Shown: in pieces, positions 4,449 to 5,171 of the stretch
Layout: each line of letters opens with the position of its first letter
How positions within the stretch are numbered: position 1 is the stretch's first letter
Assembly: GCF_017940685.1 (NCBI RefSeq)
Contig: NZ_JAGAYD010000105.1
Location: 1 to 39,556 of the forward strand
From: Butyrivibrio sp.
GTDB taxonomy: Bacteria > Bacillota > Clostridia > Lachnospirales > Lachnospiraceae
DNA: 39,556 bases
Reading direction: 5' to 3'
Made by a program: the position numbers and the translations under genes
The notes under the pieces: model-generated
Database searches by the model: none
What the model saw: only the letters and a program-made list of their open reading frames with translations
What the model was told of the DNA's origin: nothing

Positions 4449-4494
4449 AAAAAGCAGATGCTGAGAAGTAAATCTTTCTCAACACCTGCTTTTC
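4449..4494. terminator. Long imperfect hairpin with U tracts (bidirectional terminator)
   Basis: AAAAGCAGnTGnTGAGAA pairs with TTCTCAnCAnCTGCTTTT around an 8-nt loop. On the minus strand it is followed by TTTTTTCTTT, a strong U tract; on the plus strand by TTTTCTTCC. It lies just upstream of the acyltransferase gene, where no minus-strand gene ends, so the transcript it stops is unclear (see findings). Confidence 0.65.
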
Positions 4495-4603
4495 TTCCTT
4501 ATACGAATGAAAAATAGTAGGGGAAATTTTTTTGATTTATAAATAACTTGCGAGAAAACCCCTTCCGATGAAATCGATGAAATCGGATGTGGGATGAATT
4601 GCC

Positions 4604-4632
4604 TTTACACGAACAACTGTTCGTGATAGAAT
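4604..4632 (+). promoter_or_regulatory. Sigma-A promoter with an operator in its spacer
   Basis: -35 TTTACA (4604-4609), a spacer of exactly 17 nt, and -10 TAGAAT (4627-4632). The start is expected at about 4638-4640. The spacer is almost filled by the LexA-type dyad at 4608-4625, so a bound repressor would cover the promoter. It drives the plus-strand structured RNA and the small gene at 4915. Confidence 0.8.
4608..4625. promoter_or_regulatory. LexA (SOS) box
   Basis: A perfect 8+8 bp dyad, CACGAACA-AC-TGTTCGTG. Its core CGAACAACTGTTCG (4610-4623) matches the Gram-positive LexA/DinR consensus CGAACRNRYGTTYG at all but one position (C for the second R). It sits between -35 and -10 of a good promoter, the classic place for LexA repression. 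No other gene in the window shows such a site. Confidence 0.75.
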
Positions 4633-4637
4633 AAACA

Positions 4638-4850
4638 TATCGGAACCTTGAAAACTGTATATAGCGGGTTGTGCCATGAATCTAACAAACAAAGAACCTA
4701 TGGCACGTAAAATATACAAGGTGTTTGTTCCCAAGCGCCACAAGCGCATATATAACACTTAAAGTATGCCGAAGGGACTTCCCGACGGAGTAGCGGCACA
4801 GTGAACGTGCCTTACTATACCGCATGGTATTGTAGAAACCATTTCCGATA
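4638..4850 (+). ncRNA. Candidate structured RNA under SOS-type control
   Basis: Helices found by eye. The 5' end (4638-4645) pairs with 4843-4850 over 8 bp (TATCGGAA/TTCCGATA), closing the molecule from its predicted first nucleotide. Stacked inside: CCTTG 4646-4650 with CAAGG 4717-4721; TATAT 4658-4662 with ATATA 4712-4716; GTGCCAT 4671-4677 with ATGGCAC 4700-4706. The loop of that last stem (AACAAACA 4684-4691) pairs with TGTTTGTT 4722-4729, a pseudoknot. Smaller hairpins: GCGC 4735-4738/4744-4747; TGCCG 4767-4771/CGGCA 4794-4798 (or GGCAC 4795-4799/GTGCC 4807-4811); ATACC 4817-4821/GGTAT 4826-4830. No RNA family is recognised. It could be a cis-acting leader of the next gene or a separate RNA. 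A 28-codon ORF lies inside but lacks a ribosome site. Confidence 0.5.
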
Positions 4851-4856
4851 ACATCG

Positions 4857-4874
4857 GTCATGGTAGTTCATGAC
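4857..4874 (+). promoter_or_regulatory. Hairpin upstream of the 65-codon gene
   Basis: GTCATG-GTAGTT-CATGAC, a perfect 6-bp stem. It contains the ATG at 4870, which would be an alternative, longer start of the following gene, and it overlaps a competing hairpin CCGAT-AAC-ATCGG (4845-4857). The latter competes with the closing helix of the RNA, so the 3' end of the leader could switch between two forms (inference). Confidence 0.35.
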
Positions 4875-4914
4875 TATAATAGGAAAAGAAAAACATGTTT
4901 GGGAGAGCCAGGTT

Positions 4915-5112
4915 ATGAATATTCATCTTTGCAAAGGGGACGAAACCTTAGACGAGGCCCTTAAGTATATCAACGAGCACGACAAGGAAAATAAGAAGTA
5001 CACTTTCGATAAAGAAAAAGACAGGTGCTATATAGGAGATAATGCATTCTCCTCGGCACCTGTCCTTATCAACTACAAAAACACATACTACGCGCTTCAC
5101 GAAGTAGAATGA
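4915..5112 (+). CDS. Small orphan protein of the SOS-type unit
   Basis: 65 residues from the ATG at 4915, or 80 from the ATG at 4870. The shorter form is preferred because GGGAG lies 9 nt upstream of 4915, while the earlier ATG is buried in a hairpin and has no ribosome site. The protein is small, charged and soluble, with a helix (DETLDEALKYINEHDKE), a Lys/Asp-rich turn and two or three beta strands ending YYALHEVE; one Cys is at about residue 6 and one near 38. I do not recognise a family. It is the only protein gene of the plus-strand unit and is followed by a strong terminator, so induction by DNA damage is predicted. Confidence 0.55.
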   Translation: MNIHLCKGDETLDEALKYINEHDKENKKYTFDKEKDRCYIGDNAFSSAPVLINYKNTYYALHEVE

Positions 5113-5130
5113 TCAGGTGCGCAAACAAAG

Positions 5131-5161
5131 AGAGACGGTATGAGCCGTCTCTATCTTTTTT
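5131..5161. terminator. Rho-independent terminator between convergent genes
   Basis: Perfect 8-bp stem AGAGACGG / CCGTCTCT with a TATGAG loop, followed on the plus strand by ATCTTTTTT. It ends the SOS-type unit. On the minus strand it is followed by TTTGTTTG and can also end the long murE-rsgA block. Confidence 0.85.
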
Positions 5162-5171
5162 CATTCATGTA

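Follow-up and report, generated by a model that had tools for sequence, protein, structure and literature searches.

The window analyzed here (39,556 nucleotides of contig NZ_JAGAYD010000105.1, Butyrivibrio sp., assembly GCF_017940685.1) carries at positions 4541-4871 of the forward strand a 331-bp unit without a recognizable gene, which is dispersed in the source genome and is probably a non-autonomous transposon of the IS200/IS605 type, specifying an SOS-controlled omegaRNA and depending on TnpA and TnpB that act in trans. An earlier note on this stretch had placed a possible SOS-linked structured RNA at 4638-4850; this interval covers the unit incompletely, and the mobile element that carries the RNA was absent from that description.

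Extent, copies and mobility of the unit

The source genome contains six copies of the unit including that of the window, with 88-100% identity and in unrelated surroundings (the copy on contig C58 is cut); a diverged seventh unit scored 42 bits with the covariance model R1 described below. Over the loci fetched at that stage, 35 unit cores were counted. The alignment used for structure (A2) comprises 31 distinct long units and excludes two cut units (L099 and L076), a unit missing its 5' part (L080), and a truncated second match in L094; unit boundaries were checked in 30 units, the same set minus L073 (G000:C96:35949). In L073, the RNA and the promoter box are intact and the left end is unrelated; it is therefore probably a recombined or immobile unit.

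All 30 boundary-checked units have TTAT immediately to their left (4537-4540, + strand, in the window); the script pattern required this tetranucleotide, and zero units were skipped. The right terminus is GTAGTTCAT, with the variant GTGGTTCAT in L078 (n = 30). Imperfect subterminal palindromes mark both ends, the left end of L073 being the exception; hairpins with at least 10 pairs were found at 30 of 30 left ends and at 31 of 31 right ends. In the window, the imperfect left-end hairpin (4558-4594, +) has extra loop bases, the same left end being found at the start of IS605-type elements with tnpA and tnpB, and the right-end hairpin with the end GTAGTTCAT (4838-4871, +) follows the same design as in tnpB-bearing elements.

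The limits of the unit were set by an empty-site junction at the window locus, which in two relatives (L222 and L226) reads TTTAT followed across the junction by GACTATAATAGG, with TTAT intact and the target not duplicated; because AT stands at the end of both sides, the cut position is defined only to within two bases. The joined flanks of 12 of the 30 units were searched against 80 Butyrivibrio genomes with three candidates scored per genome, a scheme that may miss empty sites. Matches running through the junction were obtained for four of the 12 queried loci at 81-100% identity, namely the window locus (G006, 97% over 180 nt; G022, 95% over 132 nt), L061 (G009, 100% over 180 nt; G077, 94%; others at approximately 70-80%), L067 (G067, 98%), and L075 (G004, 96%; G032, 91%; G083, 81%), and for a fifth, L069, at 76% (G083); the seven other queried loci had no through-junction match in the 80 genomes. 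Judged by these empty sites, the units are mobile, and they insert on the 3' side of a constant tetranucleotide with no duplication of the target. The TTAT at 4537-4540 is also expected to be the TAM for TnpB.

An exact pattern scan returned 11 stretches from the GTDB genome collection, all titled as Butyrivibrio or Lachnospiraceae, and three from IMG/VR, and the INPHARED phage records gave no match at E 1e-5. A family-wide scan of 397 genomes with R1 under stricter filters found three genomes including the source; the other two scored 65 and 55 bits, like tnpB 3' ends. At E 0.001, the unit matched 13 Butyrivibrio genomes, of which 12 hold units once G068 is omitted; the match in G068 (34 bases, E 9e-4) was rejected as probably due to chance, and by eye it lies inside a permease-like frame. 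One full unit (L168, 3976-4303) is located in a 13.6-kb viral contig between endolysin-like and serine-recombinase-like frames, and the same contig has a reverse-transcriptase-like frame at 755-1942 (all by eye).

Promoter and LexA-type box

Upstream of the RNA lies a sigma-70 type promoter (4604-4632, +), recognized by its sequence, with a -35 element TTTACA at 4604-4609, a -10 element TAGAAT at 4627-4632, and a 17-bp spacer; the spacer contains CGAACAACTGTTCG (4610-4623, +), a sequence match to LexA-type boxes. This geometry is uniform: all 37 distinct unit promoters combine a box fitting YRAAYNNNNGTTYR with a 17-bp spacer between -35 and -10, 33 of them fit CRAACNNNNGTTYG, and the second and last-but-one positions of the box are symmetric in 31 (G-C in 24, A-T in 7; mixed in 6). 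The exact pattern CGAACNNNNGTTCG occurs six times in the source genome; five occurrences belong to units, and the sixth precedes the gene of a Y-family polymerase. Allowing one mismatch gives 17 places, consisting of five units, six positions upstream of SOS genes (recA, lexA, three genes of Y-family polymerases, and a UvrD-like helicase; lexA was identified by Pfam PF01726, the others by eye from translations), and six where no such neighbor was seen (all inspected except C250). The box is rare in this genome, since the backward control pattern is commoner (191 vs. 17). In the unit, the box overlaps the promoter and is the same as that before recA, lexA, and the polymerase genes, and the SOS linkage proposed earlier holds at the sequence level; the RNA is presumably controlled by LexA. 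The divergent tnpA/tnpB promoters of related transposons also contain a LexA-like dyad, RAACNNNTGTTT, in all 21 distinct regions (GAAC in 18, AAAC in 3).

A link between IS605-type elements and DNA damage is known from Deinococcus, where transposition of ISDra2 is triggered by irradiation, not through TnpA expression (PMC2806898). Since that trigger does not act through TnpA expression, SOS control at the level of promoters, as suggested here by their LexA-type boxes, would be a different route.

The RNA and its homology to the tnpB 3' end

The RNA, with a start near 4639 predicted from the promoter, consists of a 5' domain (4639-4762) and an omegaRNA core (4763-4871), both on the + strand. 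The predicted 5' domain contains a stem (4656-4662/4712-4718), a covarying hairpin (4670-4678/4699-4707), and a further hairpin (4735-4738/4744-4747). The predicted core contains a hairpin (4769-4776/4781-4788) followed by stem 1 (GGCAC/GUGCC, 4795-4799/4807-4811), stem 2 (UUAC/GUAG, 4812-4815/4832-4835), which encloses stem 3 (AUACC/GGUAU, 4817-4821/4826-4830), and stem 4 (4838-4864), which is the right-end hairpin of the transposon. GAAC in the loop of stem 1 (4803-4806) is predicted to form a pseudoknot with GTTC (4866-4869), located just before the expected 16-nt guide GACTATAATAGGAAAA (4872-4887, +), which would derive from flanking DNA at a position deduced from ISDra2; the 30 units have 30 different 16-mers as guides. 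At the 5' end of the RNA, GAACCTTGAAAACTGTATAT (4643-4662) bears a possible resemblance to rrn boxA antitermination signals. Exact CTTGAAAACTGTATA occurs at five places in the source genome, all in units, and at 17 more with one or two mismatches; near four of the mismatched places (L176, L177, L182, and L184), no rRNA gene was recognized by eye.

Across the 31 copies, 98.6% of cells are paired in this omegaRNA-like structure, and ten pairs are changed on both sides, compared to 3.3 ± 1.3 in shuffled columns (0/500). On four of five measures, no shuffle among the 500 scored as high as the structure, with the caveat that related copies may exceed shuffles without structure, least so for pair counts; the fifth measure, further pair types, was not above shuffles (51/500). 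A control with slid partners gave 28-44% pairing and 0-5 pairs changed on both sides. The predicted pseudoknot is paired in 124 of 124 cells, including six changed cells that all form G-U pairs. Stem 2 is weakest, with two pairs unpaired in 7 and 4 of the 31 copies. The best supported helix is the hairpin at 4670-4707, where four pairs are changed on both sides and at least 7 to 9 pair-state changes are needed at three pairs (parsimony, on a tree without the tested columns), a count that may be inflated by exchange between copies. Nothing corresponding to the 5' domain was found outside these units.

The RNA thus appears structured, as the earlier note had claimed, through a different set of helices. 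The complementarities that the note had described are real, both for the closing helix (TATCGGAA at 4638-4645 with TTCCGATA at 4843-4850, perfectly complementary) and for the 8-bp pseudoknot (AACAAACA at 4684-4691 with TGTTTGTT at 4722-4729, perfectly paired), and its 213 nt fold at -62.8 kcal/mol vs. -46.8 ± 3.95 for dinucleotide shuffles (z -4.05; 0 of 200 as good); extending the fold to 279 nt changes z to -2.72, with 2 shuffles as good. As conserved features, the closing helix and this pseudoknot were rejected, since they show no concerted variation beyond shuffled columns in the 31 distinct copies: one pair is changed on both sides (at least as many in 481 of 500 shuffles), the covariation score is reached by 152 of 500, and 88.3% of cells are paired (26 of 500). 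Pair 54-85 is present in 2 of the 31 copies, and pair 1-225 is missing from 15 of them. The right-end hairpin of the transposon uses as its 5' arm what is also the 3' strand of the closing helix.

Homology to known omegaRNA regions was examined with two covariance models. R1 (110 positions) was built from standalone units only and run on 40 chosen sources; the window copy, itself one of the 31 model sequences, scored 131.2 bits. R1 matched the tnpB 3' end in 22 of 22 type-A loci given, 21 of them at E 4.5e-13 to 2.5e-10 and L117 at 4.1e-5. Other matches fell on L007 and L110 (degenerate or mini units), on the plasmid TnpB L139 (9e-4), and on L108 (1.6e-3); the remaining ten of the 36 matches had E values of at least 0.07, and L133 had no match. 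Since the right-end hairpin alone could explain part of these matches, R2 was built without it and searched against 321 kb from 56 sources, among them loci of SOS genes and plasmid stretches without units; its 24 matches were the same 22 tnpB 3' ends (E 1.7e-5 to 8.3e-4), the standalone unit L141, and L139 at 0.6. The sources given hold 24 tnpB 3' ends, the two others belonging to diverged TnpBs of the plasmid pCY360 (L139, at chance level with R2, and L133, without a match); the 22 type-A ends correspond to 21 distinct places, since L045 and L112 coincide, and L128, L134, and L135, which contain only the last 26-32 residues of tnpB, were outside both searches. A 49-nt segment that stops where stem 1 ends also aligns to a type-A tnpB end, with a score reached by 0 of 5000 mononucleotide shuffles.

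By homology and architecture, the unit RNA is probably an omegaRNA: its 3' part is related to the RNA region at the tnpB 3' end, and the order of stem 1, loop-to-3'-end pseudoknot, and stems 2, 3, and 4 is present, with a weak stem 2. It does not overlap a tnpB 3' end within the same element and is classed as a standalone variant, because the unit has no tnpB. The statement that the RNA belongs to no known family stands for Rfam and fails for the 3' 109 nt, which are homologous to the omegaRNA region at the tnpB 3' end. Rfam returned no family at gathering score in the window; at E values up to 5 (4450-5170) there were four matches far under their gathering scores, none of them to HEARO, IscB omegaRNA, or group I introns. 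HEARO/IscB omegaRNA and group I intron IStrons are other cases of RNA within IS605-type elements.

The closest described architecture is that of the ISDra2 omegaRNA, in which, likewise, the loop of stem 1 pairs with bases before the guide (GTTC at 4866-4869 corresponds to its positions -6 to -3), stem 2 encloses stem 3, the end hairpin is stem 4, and the guide lies past the right end (PMC10097598). The sizes are also close, with approximately 232 nt from the predicted start to the right end of the unit and a scaffold numbered from -231 in ISDra2 (PMC10097598). The ISDra2 omegaRNA overlaps the tnpB gene (PMC10097598); in contrast, the unit has no tnpB, its own LexA-box promoter, a conserved structured 5' domain, and a short stem 3.

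Gene-less derivatives of IS605 elements are known as PATEs, palindrome-associated non-autonomous elements of Haloquadratum and Halanaerobium, one of which (in Halanaerobium) retains the final 58 nt of tnpB along with the right end (PMC3119063; PMC7290912). The unit resembles them in having IS605 ends without genes, and differs from PATEs as portrayed in these papers in forming a family of many uniform copies that have a promoter and an SOS-type operator and specify a covarying RNA. The existence of PATEs and of ends-only elements of the same family on pCY360 would suit a passive deletion derivative, in which only the ends matter and the rest is tnpB residue carried along by TnpA, with an RNA that is not used. 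This explanation is unlikely, since box and spacer are kept in every distinct promoter, the changes in the pseudoknot loop all preserve pairing, and the hairpin at 4670-4707 covaries outside both ends and outside the tnpB-like part, even if exchange between copies could inflate the tree count. The preferred reading remains a unit with a functional RNA, which is presumably transcribed and loaded by TnpB in trans.

The partner transposon and a possible guide-RNA drive

IS605-type elements with divergent tnpA and a 467-aa tnpB were found through matches restricted to the left ~67 bp of the query; their left end is the same as that of the unit, and their right end has the same design. The unit thus has its ends in common with an element encoding a Y1 transposase (tnpA matches Pfam Y1_Tnp, E 1.6e-35); in the source genome, the fetched stretch ends before tnpA does. 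A TnpB match at E 1e-40 was found in 40 of 80 Butyrivibrio genomes, four of which (G061, G062, G025, and G071) have only a 34-36% kind, and in 10 of the 12 unit-bearing genomes vs. 30 of the 68 others (Fisher p 0.025), a co-occurrence that is blurred by draft assemblies. The unit-bearing genomes G076 and G091 have no TnpB match at E 1e-40, G076 with fragments, and several other unit-bearing genomes contain only TnpB pieces.

TnpB is a nuclease related to CRISPR enzymes. The partner TnpB contains OrfB_IS605 and Cas12f1-like_TNB domains and has no phmmer match in PDB at E 0.01. By eye, it has GHN where the canonical RuvC-II glutamate is expected (L044, 783-2183, and seven aligned sequences, A5); none of the seven deviates at the aspartate of DPG/DFG/DLG, at an EE found in an alternative position, or at the last aspartate. 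Since no canonical RuvC-II glutamate was seen and the EE stands elsewhere, TnpB activity is uncertain. The DPG first motif and the alternative EE recall the Fanzor-like TnpBs, whose zinc-finger cysteines the partner TnpB does not have by eye (PMC10711439).

In the window, a 65-aa frame (4915-5112) begins 43 nt past the unit and is followed by a terminator-like hairpin (5131-5152), and SOS read-through into this frame could occur; a longer frame from 4870 has no Pfam match at E 0.001. Together with the unseen canonical glutamate, this arrangement would accommodate an RNA that guides a nuclease-dead, TnpB-like repressor or otherwise regulates nearby genes, for example by such read-through. That explanation is very unlikely, given the aspartates and the EE that are invariant in 7 of 7 TnpBs and the right flanks of the 30 units, which all differ, so that there is no constant neighbor gene.

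The non-autonomous transposon with an SOS-controlled omegaRNA would operate as follows. Without tnpA or tnpB, the unit keeps both ends and a complete omegaRNA scaffold under its own putatively LexA-controlled promoter; TnpA from a related transposon in the same cell would mobilize it in single-stranded form, with TTAT sites as targets. LexA would be cleared upon DNA damage or in the presence of other single-stranded DNA, and tnpA, tnpB, and the standalone RNAs, all with boxes in their promoters, would be made together. By analogy with published TnpB work, TnpB would bind the unit RNA, use the ~16 nt past the right end as guide, and cut a copy of the site that lacks the unit and consists of TTAT plus guide; homologous recombination with a unit-bearing copy, with RecA also induced, may then restore or spread the unit. 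On this basis, the unit may tentatively be regarded, at somewhat short of even confidence, as a gene-less guide-RNA satellite that spreads by means of a borrowed transposase, employs a borrowed TnpB nuclease as a site-specific gene drive for itself, and has built up on a megaplasmid, the SOS response setting off transposase, nuclease, guide, and RecA alike.

The plasmid pCY360 of Butyrivibrio proteoclasticus B316 (G063:C3; L201-L219) carries 14 near-full units, 13 of them on one strand (p 0.0018), and no units were found at E 0.001 elsewhere in its host genome. All 18 full 20-kb bins of the plasmid have a negative GC skew, and the sign turns positive only over the final 1.4 kb, a pattern that fits one-directional replication combined with the lagging-strand habit published for IS608 and ISDra2 (PMC6006769). 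pCY360 is listed in PLSDB as MPF_T and non-mobilizable. Ends-only mini elements of ~50 to 90 bp, whose hairpins are the same as those of the units or related to them, occur on this plasmid near 319738-319792, 333621-333710, 37925-37980 (-), and 201245-201300 (-), the ends of the latter two being approximate. In the TnpB gene drive described for IS200/605 elements in plasmids, the guide records the insertion site and copies without the IS are cut (PMC11870625); the enrichment of units on pCY360 fits such a drive, with the difference that tnpB is inside the element there and TnpB would act in trans for the unit.

The guides on pCY360 bear on a further alternative, a decoy, in which the SOS-made standalone RNA loads TnpB with harmless guides and thereby restrains the partner transposon or protects the host. 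All 14 guides have their own site; the AT-rich guide of L091 has a second site at one mismatch, and several have second sites at two or three, and the only second site preceded by TTAT within three mismatches is that of L043, at three. The near-absence of such second targets (0 of 14 guides, L043 excepted) would agree with a decoy, as would the same scaffold in many copies with the box in all of them; on the other side, a guide always corresponds to the empty site belonging to its own unit, a point in favor of retention. Sequence by itself does not separate the two readings, and the decoy is considered quite unlikely. PATEs and omegaRNAs are each already known; among the open PMC papers that literature searches listed, no title or abstract beginning described a gene-less family of many uniform copies whose omegaRNA has a promoter of its own with a LexA-type box.

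A guide-only element that multiplies would illustrate how guide and nuclease gene can become separated. A split of this kind has been proposed for the way in which Cas12 systems that have a separate RNA gene arose from TnpB (PMC10097598). SOS control of transposase, nuclease, and guide would provide an IS605-type drive with a host signal and with a testable reason for its timing, cutting at the moment when RecA is plentiful.
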